In this document: positions 2,196 to 63,875 of the stretch, piece by piece
Layout of the letters: each line of letters starts with the position of its first letter
How positions within the stretch are numbered: position 1 is the first letter of the stretch
Assembly: GCA_029891345.1 (NCBI GenBank)
Contig: CM057002.1
Span: 64,808,590 to 64,872,589, forward strand
DNA length: 64,000 nucleotides
Direction of reading: 5' to 3'
Origin: Dryococelus australis
Lineage: Eukaryota > Arthropoda > Insecta > Phasmatodea > Phasmatidae
Position numbers and translations under genes: made by a program
The notes under the pieces: model-generated
The model's input: the letters and a program-made list of their open reading frames with translations, nothing else
What the model was told of the DNA's origin: nothing
Database searches by the model: none

Positions 2196-2832
2196 CACTG
2201 TAAAAAAAAAATTTGAAGTAAAATTCCCTTACATGTAAGAGAAGCTGTAAAGTAAAATTACCTGTAAAATGTGGAAAAAATTTACATAACAAGTAAGGTT
2301 CTATTACCTAAACGTACGGAAAAGTACCTGACGAAAGTAGGGGGAAATCCTATGCATGTAAGGTAATATTAACTATATTATATAAGAATTTTATATTTAA
2401 AATTACACAAGATATTAGTACTGTTAATTTTTTTTATTACCTATATCCTCTAACGAAGAGTAACAGAAACCTCAACTCTATAATTCTTGACACATGCTGG
2501 TGGGTGAGCGCGAACCGTAGACCTCTATCACTATAGACCAATGCGCTATCCATACACCACAACAACATGATAGCATTAGTGAATATTAGTGTGTTAAAGG
2601 ATTATTTCTTCCGCCCGTCCTCCCACTTAGCTGTTGAGGCAATGCTGAAGAGATGCACGCGACGTATTGTAATCTTTGCATCCATTGATGGGATTATCCA
2701 CTGCTATGTACGTGAATTTTAATCCAGAGTGCGGTAATTTTACCTTATATGTAAGGAAAACTATGTTTCCCACACAAGTTTGTGAATATTACTTTATACT
2801 TGTCAGGTAATTTTACCATTATTTTTACAGTG
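2196..2832. mobile_element. Family D long-TIR element with tRNA-like core, copy 1
   Basis: The element starts CACTGTAAAA and ends TTTTTACAGTG. The terminal regions repeat in inverted orientation the words ATTCCCTTACATGTA, GGTAATTTTACC and ACAAGTAAGG. A second copy lies at 33048-33610 with the same order of internal blocks, such as AACTATATTATATAA and TTTCCCACACAAGTTTG, so this is a real dispersed family. The middle (2505-2570, minus) holds a tRNA-like segment. No transposase is encoded, so it is non-autonomous. The CACTG...CAGTG termini resemble CACTA (CMC) transposons, but the target duplication is unclear. Confidence 0.75.
2505..2570 (-). other. tRNA-like segment inside family D
   Basis: Read on the minus strand, GTGGTGTATGGATAGCGC resembles box A and GGTTCGCGCTC resembles box B (8 of 11 consensus positions), about 30 nt apart. 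I could not form a convincing acceptor stem, so I do not call it a tRNA gene. It sits almost exactly at the centre of element D1. Confidence 0.5.
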
Positions 2833-3156: not shown

Positions 3157-3370
3157 GGGTCTTGAGAACCTACGATGGTGGCGCGAGGTGAGAATAGAGC
3201 AGTGCTCGAACGCAAGAGCGGAAGAAGCGGGAGACCACAAAGAAAACCTGCCGACAGCGCATCGTCCGGTCCCACGTGCGAAAATCCGGGAGCGACTCCG
3301 CCGGGAATCGAACTCGGTTCGCCTGTAGGTGGGAGACAAGTAGTCTGACTACCAAACCACCGCGGCCCTG
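3157..3370 (-). mobile_element. tRNA-derived SINE (family S), near full length
   Basis: Read on the minus strand it starts GGCCGCGGTGGTTTGGTAGT (box A region), followed by GAGTTCGATTCCCGGC (box B). The SINE body shared with the other copies follows: TCGCTCCCGGATTTTCGCAC, CCGGACGATGCGCTG, GGTTTTC, and TTCTCAAGAC near the 3' end. Related copies lie at 12042, 18013, 20165, 41083, 48050 and 56286. The 90-130 codon open frames here are side effects of the GC-rich SINE body, not genes. Confidence 0.85.
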
Positions 3371-9112: not shown

Positions 9113-9529
9113 AAGGCTGTTTACGATTAAGTAAGTACTTTAGAAATGAACCTCAGAAAAAAAGTCGCTGCCTCCTGCCTGCATAAATTTTAACGTGCGT
9201 ACAGAGTTACAAGCGTCCAGTAAAGTTGGTAACGAGGGTTTGGAAAGTAGTCCCATATATTAACATCTAATAAAAAGTGTTAGGTAGCCATTTGTGATAA
9301 CTTAAATTAATATTTGTTCGTTTTTTTATGCATTGAAGTGTAAAATTGAGCCGGTTTGTATAATATTTACTTTTATAATAATTTCACAGTTTCATTTGAC
9401 CGACGCATGAATAAAGTGATGCGGCCCATGGCAAAATTCATTTACATAAGGCGGAAGAATACACAACGTGCAAACAAGTAGATACTAAGCAGGGCTTTAA
9501 AAAGTGCTCATGTTACTGTGAACAGCCTA
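9113..9529. mobile_element. MITE family A, full length
   Basis: Ends AGGCTGTTTACGATTAAG / TTACTGTGAACAGCCTA. The family-typical body includes GTAAAGTTGGTAACGA, a run with GTTAGGTA and CATTTGTGATAAC, TTTCATTTGACCGACGCATG, GGCGGAAGAATACACAACGT and a CAGGGCTTT block. TA lies at both edges. It is about 417 bp and non-coding. Confidence 0.85.
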
Positions 9530-15694: not shown

Positions 15695-15768
15695 ACGGCC
15701 GGGCCGAGAATTGAACCCAGGTTATTGCGAATGCGAATGCAAATGTTCACCACTACACCAAAGCCCTT
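15695..15768 (-). other. tRNA-like segment in the centre of the 3.9-kb element
   Basis: On the minus strand TGGTGTAGTGGTGAAC fits box A well, and GGGTTCAATTCTCGG fits box B (10 of 11 positions), with usual tRNA spacing. The acceptor stem pairs poorly and the anticodon arm holds a repeated GCATTC word. It is therefore a tRNA-derived or tRNA-like sequence rather than a sound gene. An unexplained 78-codon frame on the opposite strand lies next to it (15459-15695). Confidence 0.5.
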
Positions 15769-24127: not shown

Positions 24128-24316
24128 ACCTCTCGTGGCGCAGTCGGTTGGTGCGCCTCCGATCTGGGGTGCGGGAGGCTCTGGGGTCGAATCCCGGGAA
24201 AGCACTGGTGTTAATTTAAGTTAGGTAATAAGTTGGTCTACAAGCCGCCCCCTGCTAAGCTTTCAAGCATAAAACCGGGGGACGTTACAAAGCCCTATTA
24301 CAATACAATACAGTTT
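24128..24316 (+). mobile_element. Second SINE type with tRNA head and ACAAT tail
   Basis: CTCGTGGCGCAGTCGGTTGG is a good box A region and GGGTCGAATCCCGGG a good box B, with the usual spacing and an anticodon-stem-like CCTCC...GGAGG. A non-tRNA body of about 100 bp follows, then a short tail (TACAATACAATACAG). The body (AAGTTGGTCTACAAGCCGCC) is unlike family S, so this is a separate SINE family. Only one copy is present. Confidence 0.65.
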
Positions 24317-27364: not shown

Positions 27365-30300
27365 CCGCCAACAACACATGTGCTGTATTCTGAGTGGTCA
27401 TCGCCTCACAAGTTTATTTTAAAATATAAAATATAACTATTTCTTTCAACGCCTAAGAAAATCCCAACACCGCACACGATCTGCTACGTTCCATCGGAAA
27501 ACAACACATGAGATAACATACTTTCGTTTCTTTTGCACACGTCTTAAAGCATAAATTAACGCTTATAATATATATTGTAGTAAACCAAGCTTTATTTCGC
27601 AGCTTACACTAAATTAAAATGCGAATGTGCGTTTAAACACAGTCGAATCAAATAATTCCTCTGTTCAGAGTGTACAGTTGTTACCAAGAAGGACAAAAAT
27701 TATTTGTAAATATCTTCACTGTGACAAAATTATTTCAGTATTCTGGAATGTTTGTCGTCTCCTAGCCTAGAAACGGATAGCGATAATTTACAACCAATAT
27801 GTAACTATTTAAATTATTTGTGACAGTAGGTCATCCTTGTGTGTTAACTTTGTGGCGTATTCACAATATTATAACTTACGTTTCCTAAAAGTAGTAATGT
27901 TCTCAGAGCCCCGTAATATGTTGAATGAATAAATACGTTTTTCGGTCACTAACACTCATTTTGTTTGCCGATTATACTTTACTAACGAAACATATTTTAT
28001 AGCATGTTAGTTCATCTTCATAACAATAAGTTTTAATTCATAAAGCAAATTTAGTTTCGATTCTTTCATCATGGGTATTTTTTCATCTTTACAGGCATTA
28101 CCCTACCACTTAAGAATGTGTTCATTAATTTTAATAAGTAAGTACGACTTCCTATATTATAAAGGATTGTATAAAGTTTCCAGTGCCTAAATTCTCTGAG
28201 AGGCGTGAATCAAGCCGGCCTTACACGATACCAAATATCTGCTACCTTCTGTTATACCCATGGGCACAACAGATGGCATAGACGTTTCTATAGCAGAAAA
28301 GAAGAAAGAATTTATCAGTTCATACCCTCACGTTAACTAAAGTGATAATAGAAAAATGTAAATGGCAGTCAAAACAACTCGCAGTGGGTAGGGACACAAA
28401 TACAACCAAATGTTATATGTAGTCGCTTGTGGTGTATTCAAATGTACGAAGATGGTTTCTTTCCCCTGAAAACTGCATCTATTTATGTTTATAACTACGA
28501 GTACCTACTATTAAGGTACGGAAAATGAGATGAGCAACGGCATTGTTTGTGTGTGGAAAACATGGTACTGTATTCAAATGTATGTAGGCCCTACGACGGA
28601 CATTTACACCAATCATTAAAAAAATTAACAAATTGTTTAAACATTGGCGTGGCCAGGAGGGGGGTGTGATTTCATATTACTATTTTTGAACAAAATACAA
28701 AAGCTGTAATATTAAAAATTAATAGTTAAAACAATTATTTGTAACTAATGGGCTAATATACATATATGGAAGCACAAAATACTATATAAACACCCTTCAT
28801 GTTCAAGGAGGATCACACGTTTCTTATACTAAAATGTAATTCATCTTGTCATTTTTATTTTCAAATTTTATTTTTGAATATTTTATTTTTAATACAGGGG
28901 AGTAGGAATATGTCCTGATATGGCCCCCCCCCCCCGGGTAACTGCCTGTATTTACATACGTATATATAATGAGCAATAATAATAATCAGTCATGTACTTC
29001 ACGTAATTTAAAAAGCTTTTACGGTTAGAAGACCAAAAGAAGGCAAAACTCTCACAAGGTCTACATTGTGCTTGTTAATATTACTCACGCTATACAGCTC
29101 AAATCCTCTACTTTAGAAACCAATCGATTTGATTAGCAAACAACCACAGCTAGTTGATTTAATCGTGCTGTTACTTACGTATTGTTGCTTTTACACGGAG
29201 TTATTCTGGAAAGTGAACTTCTTCTAACATTAACATACGTTATAAACAGCAATAGAGTATCACACAAAAAAAGCTTTCGGTACACGACGGAAATTTAAAC
29301 TCAAAAACTTAAAATTACCCACTTTTTTGTTATGCTTGTTTGTTGTTGTAGTTGTTGACGTTGACGAGCTCAAGTGACACCGACTTGCTGACGAATTCTC
29401 AGTGCGACAAGCGAACCGAAAATCTGTCACGGAGGCACCAGGACGCGAACCCACGACCCCCCCGACTAATGCAGGCCACCCTACCCGTGAGTTATGTGGG
29501 GCAGGGCTGGAACTGTTCTTTTAGCACGATTTGTGCTTAAGATAATCGTTCAATTCAATCCTTAGAAATAAAACTCTTTCGCCCTTTCTTTAGATTCTAT
29601 TTTATTCTATTCGTGTAGCTGGTTCTCACCATGAGACAACTTACAAACCAATCAATAATATTTTACATCTAACAATCGCGTGCACATGATTTTGGCTTAA
29701 CTGGAGTTCTATCTCGAGAACTTATAATCCTATTGTAACTTATAAGCAATCACTTCGATGGAGGTTGCCTCACAAAGTAGTAACTGGGTTTGTACAGATA
29801 CGTATGTTGTAAATCCTTGTATAATACAAGTCCTTGTATAATTACCGAATTAAGTTGATTCACAAAGTAATGTTTTGTAAATCTACAGCATTTGTTCAGT
29901 GTTTGTATTAAGAACCAAAGCAATTTGCGTGGTTACAAATGCACAGTAAACAGCTGATAACATTGTGTGCGCCATTCATCACTTCCGAGAATAGCCTACC
30001 TGGCCCAAGAAGCGTTGCATTTTTAAACCGCATAACCTTCCGAAGAATGCCGTTGCTGTGGCTAACATCAACAGAGCGGCAAATTCGATTATGACTAAGA
30101 TAAATACGTTTGTAGATCTTAATTTCGTAATGTCTGAAGTGTTTTGAATTTCGTCGTAAAGTTGTATTTACAGTGGATTCGGGACTTAAATTTTTGATAA
30201 ATTATTACAACGTTGGCAATAATGGATTCCAACTAACGACTATCATACTTGCACAGAAAAATAAGCATAACATGTTGGAAGGTACTGAAATGAAATGCTG

Positions 30301-33047: not shown

Positions 33048-33610
33048 CACCGTAAAACATATTTGAGGTGAAATTCCCTCACATGTAGGGGAAGTTAATT
33101 ACAACTACATTTAAGGTAAAATTACCTCTTAAATGTAAAGTAAATTGACATAACAAGTAAAGTAATATTCCCTAATCATACGGAAAATGTACTTGCCAAA
33201 AGTGGGTGAAAATCCCATACAAGTAAGGGAACATCAACTATATTATATAATAGCTAACCTTATATTTAAAAATATCCCGGAATATTATATTTCTTCTTTT
33301 TATTAGTCTACATATCTCCTGTAATGTTGGACAGCTTGTATGACTACAATTCAAATTTAATTATAACGTAAAAATATATAAAATACAATTACCAAACAGG
33401 TACGAATATACAAGGAGCTCCACATGTCGTAAGGTAATTTTCCCATCCATGTATGGGATTTTCCATTACCATGTACGTGAATTTTACTCCGGAATGCGGT
33501 GATTTTATCTTACCCGTAAGGAAAACTGTGTTTCCCACACAAGTTTGAAAATATTACCTTTACACTTGTCAGGTAATTTTACCATTTTTTTTTTTTTTTT
33601 TTTTACAGTG
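33048..33610. mobile_element. Family D long-TIR element, copy 2
   Basis: Starts CACCGTAAAA and ends TTTTACAGTG, with AG on both sides as a possible 2-bp duplication. It shares ordered blocks with 2196-2832: AAATTCCC, CATAACAAGTAA, CATACGGAAAA, AACTATATTATATAA and TTTCCCACACAAGTTTG. Unlike copy 1, the middle lacks a clear tRNA-like segment. An 18-nt T tract precedes the right end. Confidence 0.75.
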
Positions 33611-42238: not shown

Positions 42239-43338
42239 TTCATATGGCTGCGACGCGTTGCATCATGGAGCGCTGCAACTGCATGCGAGGTAGGTCTGCG
42301 TGTAACTGATCGGCGGCGTTGGTAAGCACCTGCTGTAACCGAGCACGTGTGTCCGGCCGCGGTCCATCGCACACCCGATTCTTCAGGCAGCCCCACACGA
42401 AGAAGGCCAGAGGGGAGAGGTCCGGAGAACTCGTCGGCCACGATACCGGCCCACCCCGTCCAATCCAGCGGAGTGGAAATGCAGTATTCAGCTATGTTGT
42501 AACAGTCCTTCTGAAGCGTGGAGGAGCCCCATGCTGCTGTAGCCACATCCGCCGGCGAACCTCTAACGGCACATCGTTCAATAACACGGGGAGGGTGTTG
42601 ACCAGAAACTTCCTGTAGACGTGAGCAGTAACACACTTCCAGCGAAGTAATGTGGGCCGACGAGCCGTGAGCCAAGCACACCGCACCACACGTTGACTGA
42701 AAACCTTTCCTGGAGATTGGTTTCCGTGACACCGTGCGGATTGGCGTGTGTCCACGTGTTCACATTGCGGCTCTTGGTGAGGCCCTGACGCGCGAAAGTT
42801 GCCTCGTCGGAGAACAGAATGAGGGGCAGTGTGTCCTCGTGTTCCTGTAGCCAGGCGCAAAACTGCAGACGGGGTGCGTGATCCTGGGGCCGCAGGTGTT
42901 GCACTGTTTCCGGAGGTAGGGTTGCTGGCCGTCGGCGCTCAATATCCGCCACACCTGTGTTTGCGACACCACTGCCGTCTGTGCAATCGTACGTACGCTG
43001 GTATGTGGTGCTTCCGCGATCTCGTCCAGTACAGCCACGTCATGCCAGCGATACTCCCGCTCCTGTGTTCGTCGCGGGCAGGCTCTTGTCTCCCTCCAAC
43101 ACTGGTACGCTTTGGCGAACGTCGTATGAAGCGACGCTCGGCGGGCGATACTCCACCGCCATCACAGAATCCGTACATCTATACCATGTCCGCGTACTCT
43201 GCTCGGGTAATCAGACTTGGCATGGTGCGTCGTATGATGCGGCGCTCGGCGGGCGATACTCCACCGCCGTCACAGAATCCGTACACCTATACCATGTCCG
43301 CGTACTCTGCTCGGGTAATCAGACATGGCATGGTGCGT
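42239..43338 (-). pseudogene. mariner/IS630-type transposase pseudogene
   Basis: The enzyme would cut and paste the element with a D,D,D active site. Visible on the minus strand in order: N-terminal YADMV...YGFCDG and TTFAKAYQCWRETRA (DNA-binding region), VLDEIAEAPHTSVRTIAQ, LILFSDEATF with the first catalytic Asp, NTWTHANPH, FSVNVWCGVLG, MWLQQHGAPPRF, and SPDLSPLAFFVWG with the third Asp. The second Asp, usually in an HDGAPPHF-type motif, reads QHGAPP, so it has become His. Other breaks: TAG in the N-terminus, frameshifts near 42900 and 42640, TAG near 42490, and a 108-bp in-frame duplication of the N-terminus. The terminal stop TGA is at 42239-42241. Confidence 0.85.
43123..43338 (-). repeat. 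108-bp in-frame tandem duplication in transposase N-terminus
   Basis: Copies 43123-43230 and 43231-43338 differ by only a few bases. The period is 36 codons, so the frame is kept. Both copies carry the same TAG in place of the codon after YADMV. Confidence 0.9.
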
Positions 43339-43542
43339 CTCCTCGCCTCGTAACACCAACATTGACAGGCCATGCCGGCCTCCCGACACTGTGGCCTGCG
43401 TGTGATTTAATGGACACTTTGTCAACTGCGTGTGTGTGTCTTTCACCTGTCCTGTCAACACAGCAATGGACGGTTTTTCCACTGTATCTGCCTGTGATCC
43501 TTGCACGTCCGTCCCTGTAGCTCGATACTGGAGCTGCGTAGC

Positions 43543-44209: not shown

Positions 44210-45199
44210 CACTCTAAATCGGAATCAGTTATTTTTTTAGTGATTGTCAGTTGAAACTGCACCATCCGAAATCGGTAAAAAAAATATCACTAATTCATCA
44301 GTTAAAAGAAATCTTCTAAATCAGGCAGTAAAAAACTAGTTATTTATAGTTGGTTAATGCAAGTACATGACTTTGCAAAGTTCGAAAATCAATCTATTTT
44401 AGTTTAGTTCGGATTCTGTTCTTTAAAAGATAAGTATGGTGGTTTCAATGTACGAGATCATCAATGTTAATTAGTGCCCGTCATTTTACAATGCAACGAG
44501 ACACACAGGTTTAAACTGTTATTTTTAGTGGCAGATAGATGAGTGATCATTTTACTGGCTCGATAGTGGGGTGATTCAATAAGAAAGGTGAATTTACACC
44601 AACAAAAGTTGCATTGTAAAATGGCAGATACATATACAACACAGACAACACCGTTAAAACCACTATATTTCTCTTTTAAAGCACACAATCTGAACTAAAC
44701 TTAATTTAGAATGACTGTCGAGCCTTACAAAGACATGTAAATACGTACGCATAATATGTGTATATTTCGACAATATGAAGTACTTACACATTACTAAACC
44801 GTTCGCCATTGTAAGTTTCTGTTACTAGGCAAATACAAAACCGTTTCTCTCAGTGACAAAGTAGCAGAGTTGGTAGAACGTCAGCCAAAAGAAACAAAAA
44901 AAATGTGTTGCTTTCTGGGGTGGCAGTTCGATACCAACCACTTCCAAAATTTCCTTGTGCATGTGATAATTTGGTTTTGCGACAAAATAATTGTACTTAA
45001 TTTATTTCAAACCATAATGGGCCGTTTTTAATCCTTGTGCTTTTTATTAATCGACTATAAATAACTGATTTCCTACTGTTTGTTTTAGTGGATTTCATTT
45101 AACTGAAGAGATTAGTAGCTTTTTTTATACTGATTCCGGATGGAACAGTTTCAAACCGACAATTAGTAAAAAAAAAATAACTGATTCCGATTTAGAGGG
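44210..45199. mobile_element. Family E long-TIR element with tRNA-like core
   Basis: Left terminus CACTCTAAATCGGAATCAGT; right terminus ACTGATTCCGATTTAGAGGG, flanked by TA on both sides. Inverted similarity extends about 150 bp (44210-44360 against 45047-45199), including TTATTTATAGT(T/C)G(G/A)TTAAT at the inner edges. The interior holds a tRNA-like segment at 44862-44935 and no coding region. It is about 990 bp and is assigned to the CACTnTAAA-ended group. Confidence 0.8.
44862..44935 (+). other. tRNA-like segment inside family E
   Basis: GTAGCAGAGTTGGTAGAACG matches the box A consensus TRGCNNAGYNGG exactly. CAGTTCGATACCAACC fits box B at 9 of 11 positions. The middle is A-rich and lacks a normal anticodon arm, so it is not called a functional tRNA. 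Confidence 0.55.
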
Positions 45200-45685: not shown

Positions 45686-46739
45686 TTCTACTATGAACCT
45701 ATTTTAGAAGAATATAGGCCTATCTGTACTGGAAGTTTAAGCCGGAATTAATAGACCAGTATCAAGTTATTTTTAATTTAACATTATTCGTTTTGCTCTA
45801 CATTAAAAAAAATTCTTTACCTTAAAAATGTGTTTGTTTTCTAAGAGAATTATTGTCTTTAATCTCCAATAACTGAAAAGTGTATTTTGGCCACAAACAA
45901 TATTTGATGTGGTATGCTCTGCAATGCATTTAAAATAGTTAACCAACAAGATATAAGCATAACCCTGACATATGCAAAGGCGAGATTGTGTTACATAGAA
46001 AATAAAATTTCTTTCCTGGATGTATGGCTGTGAAGTTGTTTATGAAAACATGTTTGGTAGACAAAAACTTGTAGGGACCGCAGGCAGATGAAAGCTACAA
46101 ATCGAACTAGAGATTCACGACCGAGAGTTGTGTAATATCCTTCACGCCGGCGTGTCATTTCTTGTTACCGTCGCATAAAGAAGGGAGATGTAATCACTAA
46201 GGCACGCGGGGGATGTTTTCTCGCCACCCTGCCAACGCACCTTAAAATCTTTACGAGCTCCCGTCAAGTGGACCATATTTTATTCATCCACGCGCGCTTT
46301 CGCTACGCTATTTATTAGTCTGCTCTCGGGCTGAATGCAACCCCCCCCCCCCCCAACTTAATATTTTATGCATCTCTCCCTCCTCGCCACCCCATACTCT
46401 TCGCATTTTCCGGGACTCGCCATGTTTCACACCCGCGGGGAATCTCCGTCACTCAGATGAGATACTGCCCTCCCTCCCCCCTTCCCATCAAAGTATCACG
46501 CCAACCTTCCCCTTCCAAACCCAAGTCTCTCGGTTCTTTCCTAGAGTCAATTAGAGTACGCCGGCTGTTATGTAGTGGGAGTGGCCACATCTTTCACTGG
46601 CTGGAGTGCGCCCTCGACTATCCTCCTGGATAAATAAGCCCTTAACGAAGTGGGAACTTGGCTGCTGTGGAATTAATGAAACTTCAAACTAAACAAATTC
46701 GCAGCAAATTTTAAGACACAAATTTTCCTTCTATTATTC
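45686..46739. other. Unrecognised sequence with GC-rich patch
   Basis: A C tract lies at 46341-46354, and a pyrimidine-rich GC-rich patch at 46330-46660. No motif recognised. Confidence 0.4.
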
Positions 46740-47097
46740 CATCTTAGCCTAGAGTCGAAGGGTGCGCGAGTTCAATCCCGGCCATATGCGGACTTTTTTT
46801 TCTAGTTCTTAAATTACAATAAATGACACAGTATAAATAGTAAACTGTCATAAATATGTTTATTTCACGTATTTATTTGCCTACATTTAGTAAAAACAAT
46901 ATGTAATTCGTCACTGCAGTTCGTCATCCCTTATTCAATCAGTGAAATTGTTTCACGTCACTAATTAAATAAGTGACATTTTTTCACAGAAACAATAAGT
47001 GGTTTTCTACTGATTCTAAGTGGAGCCATTTTCAATGATAATAGTAGATTAATTTCACTGCGAATCAATAGTTCCCCACTGATTCGAATTTAGAGTG
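46740..47097. mobile_element. Family F fragment (CACT-ended) with box-B-like sequence
   Basis: The right end GATTCGAATTTAGAGTG is the reverse complement of a CACTCTAAATTCGAATC terminus, very like family E. Subterminal blocks GTGACATTTTTTCAC and AGTGGTTTTCTACTGATTC resemble E. At 46767-46781 CGAGTTCAATCCCGGCC fits box B (10 of 11). No matching left terminus was found, so the element is truncated. Confidence 0.5.
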
Positions 47098-48049: not shown

Positions 48050-48300
48050 ATGAGTGAGTGAAGAGCTTTGGGTGACTCTTAACAGCGAGATCTTGAGAGC
48101 CGATGAGGGGGTGATTGAGGTGAGCGTGGAGCAGCACCAGAATGAAAGGTTGGGGGAAACGGTAGATCCCCGAGAAAACCCGCCAACCAGCGGCATCGTG
48201 CGGCACGATTCCCCACATGCGAAAAATCTGGGAGTGACCCAGCCAGGGATTGAACCCGGTTCGTCATTGGTGGAAGGCTAGCAGGCTAACCGCTCAGTCA
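48050..48300 (-). mobile_element. tRNA-derived SINE family S, near full length
   Basis: On the minus strand TGACTGAGCGGTTAGCCTGC is a Leu/Ser-class tRNA-like box A, and CGGGTTCAATCCCTGGC is box B. The body runs GGTCACTCCCAGATTTTTCG, CGTGCCGCACGATGCCGCTG, GGCGGGTTTTCTCGGGGATC, CATTCTGGTGCTGCTCCA and CGGCTCTCAAGATC. The best full-length copy in the window. Confidence 0.9.
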
Positions 48301-56285: not shown

Positions 56286-56490
56286 AGTGAGTCAAGAAAT
56301 ATGGACGGCTCGTAAAATCGAGGTCTTGAGAGCCGGTGAGGGAAACGGGATATCCCCGAGAAAAGCCTCCGACCAACGGTATTCTCCGGCACGATTCCCA
56401 CACGCGAAAATCTGGAGTGACCCGGCCGGGGATTCAACCCGGATCGCTTTGGTGGGAAGCGAGCAGGCTAACCGCTCAGCCACCATGGCC
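56286..56490 (-). mobile_element. tRNA-derived SINE family S
   Basis: On the minus strand GGTGGCTGAGCGGTTAGCCT (box A, Leu/Ser-class) and CGGGTTGAATCCCCGGC (box B). The body includes CGTGCCGGAGAATACCGTTG and TCTCGGGGATATCCC, ending CCGGCTCTCAAGACC. A body segment is shortened relative to 48050. Confidence 0.85.
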
Positions 56491-56752: not shown

Positions 56753-57396
56753 GCTTCCCTAAACATTCAATTGGTTTGCCAGTAGCTCTAATGAAAGTGC
56801 CAACAAGAATAATCCTATTACTTATTATAAAGTCAGCGATTGACATTTTTTTATATTTATTTATTACTCTGACGGAAAAAAAAAACTATTTTCTACACTC
56901 TACAAATTGCTGTCGAAGTAAATGTATGTACAATAATATTACCTCCCGAAGGTGTCTAGTTAAACTGATGAACGTTTCAAGTACATCGGCCAACATACGG
57001 CGTTGTATCATTCACTTCGTTACACCGTGTACAGTAAAGCACCAGACAGTAACTCGTGCACATGGAAGGTTGAACGTTGAGTATGTGTGTACCTGCCATG
57101 CCTCCAAGACGGCTGTACGCCCCTGTTGCACGTTTGCAACAGTCTGAGAGGGGCCTCATCTGGGGACTTCACAAGGCGGGATTGACATGCCGACGGAGTG
57201 CTGCCAATGTTTGTCATGATACATCCGTAGTTGGGTAATGTTTCCAGTGGTGATCGGTTGAACGGGCCAAAACAGGTTCGGGACGACCGCGTAGTCTGTA
57301 CGGTGCATTGTCAAGGTAGCACTGGCAGACCGCTCTGCATCAGCGGCAGAGATCAGAGCGGATGTGGCACCAGGGTTGTCTGCACACAGCACTGCT

Positions 57397-61843: not shown

Positions 61844-62121
61844 CACTCTAAAGTTGAAACAGTTAAATCTGCTTCGAATCAGCGAATTTTACGGCATATA
61901 TAGCGAAAATGCTCCATTCAAATCAGTAAAATTCTATTCGACAATTTATTTAGTGGCATTAACTGTTTGAACAGTGGTTTATATTGATTCCTGGTGAATA
62001 GCACTCGTCTCTTGCAGTCAAAATGCGGTGAATTCTACTGATTCGCCAGTAAACAGATAATTCACTCAAGATTCTGTGAAATAATTCTACTGACTGAAAT
62101 CGTTGACTCAGATTTATAGTG
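61844..62121. mobile_element. Family G short TIR element
   Basis: Left CACTCTAAAGTTG, right CAGATTTATAGTG. Subterminal blocks GAATCAGCGAATTTTAC and GTGAATTCTACTGATTC are inverted counterparts. 278 bp, no coding capacity. It belongs to the CACTnTAAA-ended group and has no tRNA-like centre. Confidence 0.6.
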
Positions 62122-63204: not shown

Positions 63205-63875
63205 CACTGAGAGAGAATTAAACAAAATATTTGTTTGTATAGGGCCAAAAATATATTTAGCTGCCGTAACAAAATATATTGTTGAGCAAACAAAATTTGA
63301 AAAGCAACAAAATTACCTTTGTTCGTTAAAATAAACATGTTTGAATACACAAAATCTCTGTGTTGGACCCAAAAAAATTAGACTGTCAACTAAATAGTTT
63401 GTGACAATTAGGATAGTAACAGTGCTTGTTAGTGCATCTATTAATGTTTCATATTCGTATAAATACATTAATAAAACAATGCAACAGGAAACTGACAAGT
63501 AAATCTGTAAAACTTGAAATATTTGTTTACACGCGTTGCCCAATATTAGCAGTATATCTACTTAAATGCAGCCGCACGTCCTCAGTTGTCACATCAGGTG
63601 AGGTTACTAAGGCGTAGCGTGCGGACGCAGGTGATCCAGGTTCGAAACTTGGTCGAAATTGTTAACTTTTGTTACATAAGCCCAAACTGTTCAAGGTACG
63701 TAGATGCAAACTAATCTGTAGTTGCGTCAACCAAATCTTTGTCTGGCGGCAACCAAATGAGAACAACAAAATATTATGGTTTCAGCAACGGGATATTTCG
63801 TTGCCCATATACAAACAAATAATTTGGTGGCACCAAACAAATCTTGTTTGATTCAACTAAACATTTTTCTCAGTG
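63205..63875. mobile_element. Family H long-TIR element with tRNA-like core
   Basis: Left CACTGAGAGAGAATTAAAC, right TAAACATTTTTCTCAGTG, flanked by TA on both sides. Inverted similarity of about 130 bp, including AAATATTTGTTTGTATA(T)GGGC against GCCCATATACAAACAAATAA. A tRNA-like segment lies at 63607-63655. Non-coding, 671 bp. Confidence 0.75.
63607..63655 (+). other. tRNA-like segment inside family H
   Basis: AAGGCGTAGCGTGCGG fits box A at about 10 of 12 positions and CAGGTTCGAAACTTGG fits box B at 9 of 11. The distance between boxes is shorter than in a true tRNA, so it is a decayed or tRNA-like segment. Confidence 0.45.

Follow-up and report, generated by a model that had tools for sequence, protein, structure and literature searches.

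tRNA-like modules, probably captured, inside CACT...AGTG terminal inverted repeat elements of Dryococelus australis

The head of a SINE derives from tRNA, 7SL or 5S RNA; a tRNA-derived SINE is recognized by a head with A and B boxes in a decayed cloverleaf, a LINE-like or A-rich tail and target repeats of variable length. This anatomy is also described in the accessible part of a report on MER6 and MER6A, a mariner MITE with TA duplications in which a V-SINE is embedded (PMC6887750). Among transposons with related ends, the EnSpm-Mirage-Chapaev-Transib clade has, in the available text of its description, CA...TG ends and duplications of 2–5 bp; the CMCT clade is given there as EnSpm/CACTA, Mirage, Chapaev, Transib and ESTA, the last of which duplicates TA (PMC12730594). 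For the ISL2EU group of the PHIS superfamily, the part of the source at hand reports 2-bp duplications and terminal inverted repeats (TIRs) of 6 to 259 bp (PMC4482050).

The window analyzed here, 64,000 nucleotides of contig C10 (64.81–64.87 Mb) of the stick insect Dryococelus australis, contained four element families, D, E, F and H, which were compared with these systems. Like MER6, as presented in the accessible text, they are non-autonomous TIR elements that hold a putatively SINE-derived part and were amplified as composites. Unlike MER6, whose SINE part lost its tRNA head, a tRNA-like promoter region was present, and this in four families, one of which had the module doubled in opposite arms; in addition, the target duplication was not strictly TA (PMC6887750). 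CA...TG termini and a duplication within 2–5 bp are shared with the CMCT clade as described in the available text, a possible affinity based on ends and duplications (PMC12730594). The 2-bp duplications and the TIRs also recall ISL2EU, but this group, in the portion of its description at hand, has AT as its duplication and TIRs that mostly begin with GG (PMC4482050). ISL2EU, considered for the 2-bp duplications, was set aside because of the ends. As in tRNA-derived SINEs, the modules of D, E, F and H showed an A/B-box head with a decayed cloverleaf; unlike SINEs, the elements ended in inverted repeats, not in a LINE-like or A-rich tail, and lacked target repeats of variable length. The exception was an extra SINE inside F, which was a genuine tRNA-headed SINE. 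A literature search, with subscription journals mostly outside its coverage, recovered no recognized description of tRNA-like modules in MITEs besides MER6.

Element families, termini and target sites

The E element noted in the preliminary description at positions 44210–45199 (forward strand) proved to be real: TA flanked both ends, the TIRs of about 150 bp (left 44210–44358, forward; right 45046–45197, reverse) were 80% identical in a self-alignment (query positions 1–149 against 837–988), a tRNA-like module lay inside, and 28 copies were delimited. For this family, 40 candidates out of 2041 candidate genomic places were scored, the best matches being whole copies. The delimited copies comprised 20 of a form designated Ea (1.08–1.15 kb), seven of a longer form, Eb (1.40–1.45 kb), and the window copy, an internal deletion of Ea (990 bp, with about 105 bp of Ea missing). 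The other families were represented on the forward strand of the window by D1 (2196–2832, with unequal flanking dinucleotides, AA and AT), D2 (33048–33610), a 5'-truncated F with its right end present (46680–47097) and H (63205–63875, TA at either side). G2 (61844–62121, forward), a short module-free CACT element, served as negative control.

Loci in which an end was not found were dropped, which left 17 of 20 genomic loci plus the window copy for D, 12 of 20 for F and 18 of 21 for H. The unconfirmed candidate places of the first-pass genome search ranged from 2041 (E) up to 6823 (H). Mean divergence from the consensus was 5% for both Ea and Eb, 8% for F and H, and 9% for D, as measured on top-scoring copies, so that the families may be older than these figures imply. 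The longest stop-free stretch of each consensus reached 85 codons in E, 58 in F, 95 in D and 168 in H; the E, F and D consensuses had no long reading frame and no transposase coding. A strict scan of the collected sequences for TIR elements (CACT...AGTG, 13 of 16 TIR matches, equal dinucleotides, five window-repeating loci excluded) gave 25 pairs, all of them E, F or D, and missed H and G.

The CACT...AGTG termini previously claimed for the group were common to the genome copies of D, E, F and H. Equal flanking dinucleotides, mostly TA and then CA and TG, were found in 51 of the 76 copies (E 16/28, H 12/18, F 11/12, D 12/18). Where the left flank was not TA, the same dinucleotide stood on the right in 20 of 41 copies against 6.2 expected, the maximum across 5000 permutations being 14. 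Equal flank words of 3–5 bases were absent from the 76 copies, save two 4-mers in H. The target duplication was hence 2 bp long, with a preference for TA and next for CA and TG. One such target was visible as a paralogous filled site (L021), where an E copy sits within the module of an F copy and the GGCCTAGAG of F has become GGCC-TA-[E]-TA-GAG; in the flank count this copy was scored as unequal, its assigned end having been displaced by the absence of two TIR bases.

The Tc1/mariner group duplicates strictly TA. The TA flanks had earlier been taken to suggest targeting of this type, an assignment that was not supported, as non-TA dinucleotides were duplicated as well. D, E, F and H combine TIRs with a short fixed target duplication, as MITE-like elements do. 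Of the CACTA/CMC transposase proposed at the same time, the CA...TG ends and a duplication within the 2–5 bp range were found, and an affinity with this group would be compatible with these two features. The transposase of the group carries C(2)C and H(3-4)H motifs; the EnSpm transposase model PF02992 gave no match, in a search that was also blank in its controls.

Further repeats were present in the window. A second repeat group comprised nine copies of a 125-bp unit together with many inverted partners, and contained stretches similar to TATAGGCTGTTCACGGTAAAGTGAGCACTTTTGAAA (for example at 9356, 11663, 32423, 39548, 49949, 51542, 53870, 54686 and 57649). A putative relic of a Tc1/mariner-type transposase was noted by eye at about 57100–57350, and two copies of a 108-bp unit, 95% alike, lay at 43120–43339. 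Elsewhere in the genome (L005:2095–2400), a 68-bp tandem unit directly followed the right end of an E copy, each repeat finishing with the last TIR bases.

The tRNA-like modules

The modules were scored with a matrix built from 8 distinct box A words and 10 distinct box B words of the genome's own tRNA genes, and the score of each consensus was compared with those of 400 dinucleotide shuffles. The observed score was reached by no shuffle for Ea, Eb and F, nor for either arm of Eb when the left and right arms were scored separately, whereas H was weaker (8/400). A box excess was not recovered for D with this matrix, in which its type of box A is absent: 35 of 400 shuffles reached the score, no better than the control G1 (37/400). 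Among the module-free sequences of the window, G1 was slightly above its shuffles, and G2 (217/400) and D2 (199/400) did not exceed theirs.

At the family level, the tRNA-like segments proposed for D, E, F and H were borne out. Outside F, the segments were kept in most copies: all 20 Ea copies and all seven Eb copies had both boxes (up to three substitutions allowed in each), the latter in each of their two modules, as did 17 of 18 D and 16 of 18 H copies; in F both were found in 5 of 12. These counts are biased upward, the copies being the top matches to queries that contained the module (for F, its second half only). In the window, the E module is of the right-arm type (44842–44957, forward; box A 44862–44873, box B 44925–44935), that of D1 occupies 2495–2566 (reverse), that of H 63603–63660 (forward), and the F copy retains the second half only (46747–46801), without box A. 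In the F consensus, an almost complete tRNA-like 5' half is followed by a B box.

A covariance model, R1, was trained on 23 tRNA genes. In a search of 33 loci (62.5 kb), four of nine D copies were found at E values of 0.006–0.08 and five of six left-arm Eb modules at 0.07–0.8, followed by two F copies (0.29 and 1.5), one H copy (7.7) and the right arm of E in two copies (about 8–9). The window modules of D1 and H scored 15.1 bits (E 0.017) and 6.8 bits (E 9.6), the latter a weak match also recognized by the box matrix. ARAGORN reported no tRNA in the window, nor in the consensuses at normal settings; with relaxed settings the modules were detected, but alongside noise. Rfam likewise reported none, whether in the window (gathering scores) or in 16 copies (E values up to 10). 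Scoring with tRNA models, as suggested at the outset, therefore supported D and left-arm E through the covariance model, left H and right-arm E weak, and gave nothing with Rfam or, at normal settings, with ARAGORN. Since ARAGORN and Rfam were negative and R1 scores were far below those of true tRNAs (at most 16.4 bits for the D, E, F and H modules against 78–89 bits for the 29 given tRNA genes), the modules are decayed or SINE-type tRNA derivatives, by their sequence, and not tRNA genes.

Six places in the window matched R1 at E values below 0.05: D1, a SINE at 29342–29507 and four outside the listed elements, so that tRNA-like heads are not specific to these TIR elements. Apart from D1 and this SINE, heads lay at 24129–24204 (forward) and, on the reverse strand, at 56418–56489, 15696–15765, 3293–3366 and 48235–48299, the last with an E value of 1.2 only. 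The heads at 56418 and 48235 shared 85% identity, perhaps as members of one SINE family.

The module had been described as central in these elements, which was untrue for Eb. The Eb consensus (1439 bp) aligned end to end with its own reverse complement at 73% identity over about 1500 columns, the first 60 bp of the arms being identical and the following 60 columns 82% so. This long form of E is palindromic over its full length, and each arm holds one module that faces outward. Ea lacks positions 143–443 of Eb, and hence the left module. At two loci (L113 and L114), about 6 kb apart on contig C5, a tRNA gene read by eye as Lys type (anticodon TTT) lay about 235 bp from the end of an Eb copy. 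At another (L109:2432–2521), an E copy stopped just past box A of the module and continued as unrelated sequence.

A second tRNA-derived sequence was found in F. In 5 of the 12 copies, box A of the module was interrupted by 136–255 extra bases made up of another tRNA-like head with a body and an A-rich end; five of the seven copies that failed the box count have this SINE in box A. The same SINE stands free in the window (29342–29507, reverse strand), and was 79% identical to the F insert over 173 columns. The nested SINE head alone was matched by R1 in L065 (E 5.3e-5), whereas the match in L056 (2.9e-6) connected box A of F to the latter half of that head; the insert was also matched, at 75%, in an undelimited F locus (L057). 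AAGTAG flanked the insert on both sides in L059, and the other SINE-bearing copies were compatible, by eye, with an AGATGG repeat. Because all five inserts share one place, the simplest reading would be one SINE insertion in an F master. The route from a SINE into a TIR element and on to amplification is seen in F at its middle stage.

D2 had been listed as lacking the module, which held for its own sequence but not for its relatives. It shares both ends with the D consensus and differs in the middle. The module-free D2 query listed 39 further places, 23 of which were read (L127–L129 and 20 more); a D-type box A, judged by eye, was present in 20 (the first three and 17 of the 20) and not visible in L132, L134 and L147. 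In L127–L129 the D sequence, module included, is followed by a duplicated 3' segment, and L148, a D relative, continues beyond box A as the head of the SINE nested in F. Two places (C14:83583880 and C8:10038962) align straight through D2 without the usual break and likely lack the module. Since 20 of the 23 relatives keep the D box A, D2 is probably an internal-deletion derivative of a module-carrying D subfamily and not a module-free family of its own. The idea that D2 preserves the state before a module was inserted was rejected, as the relatives have the module plus the duplicated 3' segment. The consensuses of D1 and of D3, the subfamily of the D2 relatives, differed at one position in the module, which was uninformative on compensatory changes.

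Origin and possible role of the modules

Modules of different families were 57–69% identical to one another, apparently, therefore, the result of separate acquisitions. Their identity to the nearest true tRNA gene was 68–74%, no closer than that of other tRNA-like heads of the window. No parent SINE or tRNA of the D, E, F and H modules was found outside such elements in 353 kb (344 kb once the window-repeating loci are left out), a set much of which was chosen as element copies. Matches outside a module's own loci were short chance strings or same-family copies only, namely E in L109, in L113 and L114 (beside tRNA genes) and in L021 (inside F), and H in L070. No target repeats were recognized by eye around the D, F and H modules.

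The preliminary description had left open whether the tRNA-like sequences were captured or are a functional part. Capture was better supported, by the module identities and the SINE nested in F, and function was hinted at in E only. Independent captures of tRNA-like modules, amplified mainly as passengers in the D, E, F and H TIR transposons, are thus considered the probable explanation. D, E, F and H would be four non-autonomous TIR DNA transposon families that duplicate 2 bp and are mobilized by a transposase supplied in trans. Each would have gained an A-box/B-box module independently, from a SINE or a tRNA-like pseudogene, before amplification, and transposition would then have copied the module along with the element. 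A whole E may have become an inverted repeat, giving Eb with two outward modules, and Ea may have arisen from it by deletion of the left module; both forms are seen in the consensuses, and the direction is the one we infer. In F, the module itself received a SINE, flanked by a short target repeat, presumably in one event, and this form multiplied (5 of 12 copies). Some modules, although mainly passengers, may still bind TFIIIC or start short pol III transcripts.

Alternatively, the module could be a working part of the element, through which pol III or TFIIIC keeps the element accessible, or a short RNA aids its mobility, the boxes being selected in the masters. Four of the five families tested carry a module (G does not), although the families were those picked in the preliminary description. 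The hint comes from the two arms of Eb, which are about 73% identical overall and 57% between the boxes (30 of 53 columns), yet agree at 17 of the 18 defining box positions (binomial P 0.027 at a 73% background and 6e-4 at 57%). Box B differs at its two free positions only and box A at three free and one defining position, which places five of the six differences at the five free positions (hypergeometric P 1.8e-4); this comparison was chosen after the arms had been seen, with the free positions taken from the box consensus. Retention was not restricted to the boxes: 74 of 94 columns were kept 60–150 nt upstream of box A, with 88% identity in one 60-column row upstream of the module, compared with 44 of 66 over the 60 nt adjoining box A on that side and 50 of 68 downstream. 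Box retention in the E arms is hence a lead, and it would hint at a pol III function for E only.

Extra conservation among copies, which had been proposed as a test, was not found. Identity to the consensus, in 50-bp steps, was lowest in the module of F (0.83–0.85 against 0.89–0.97 in the other full steps) and lower in that of H (0.86–0.90 against 0.91–0.95 elsewhere); in D it was 0.88, equal to that of positions 201–250, the others being 0.91–0.94, and in Ea it was average (0.94–0.96 within a range of 0.93–0.97). As a test of function this is of limited value, the copies being probably neutral after insertion, nor would dead copies be expected to pass it even if the master required the module. 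Against a working part, F also amplified a form in which a SINE disrupts box A, although the SINE brings its own boxes, and the module is missing from G and from at least one deletion derivative (D2). A run of at least four T, a possible terminator, lies 13–34 nt after box B in five of five modules (chance product 3.6e-4), but this argument was rejected because five of the six other tRNA-like heads of the window have one as well, 17–23 nt after box B. Overall, a working part seems unlikely. The broader proposal, in which class II elements would keep a tRNA-type pol III promoter as a working part, and DNA bound by TFIIIC would be open to the transposase and so favor repeated recruitment, is quite unlikely too. 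If it were true, Eb would be a 1.44-kb palindrome in which both arms carry an outward-facing pol III unit; the boxes would have been maintained as the remainder of the arms diverged by more than a quarter.

That the modules are mere coincidence, strings resembling A and B boxes in AT-rich elements and noticed since the genome is full of tRNA-like heads, is very unlikely. The silence of Rfam and of ARAGORN, apart from the noisy relaxed run, speaks for it, as do the six tRNA-like places in 64 kb, D1 included, and the box scores of D, no better than the control, and of H. However, no shuffle equaled the E and F consensuses, each E arm passed alone, the covariance model matched four of nine D and five of six left-arm E copies (E 0.006–0.8), and the F consensus retains almost a whole tRNA-like 5' half with its B box; for E and F, coincidence appears already unlikely on these sequence comparisons. 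SINEs that acquired inverted-repeat ends and move by retrotransposition would account for the tRNA-like heads, but are extremely unlikely given the fixed CACT...AGTG termini with 2-bp duplications and the internal modules, which occur in two orientations in E and without a 3' tail at the element end.

Significance of the probably captured modules

As captured passengers, the modules make these elements ordinary in kind: non-autonomous DNA transposons that hold captured sequence have a published parallel in MER6, according to the accessible text of its report (PMC6887750). They are unusual in that the captured part is a pol III promoter region, in four families, and that the module was once doubled into a palindrome (E) and once the target of a second capture (F). 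Pieces with pol III promoter boxes can thus spread by way of TIR elements, and not by retrotransposition, in several families together. In the published annotation of the D. australis genome, according to the part of the report available, 1.56 Gb of repeats are unclassified (PMC10268593), and the present analysis supplies an anatomy for repeats of this genome. If the boxes of E are truly selected, this family would offer a testable case of a DNA transposon that uses TFIIIC.
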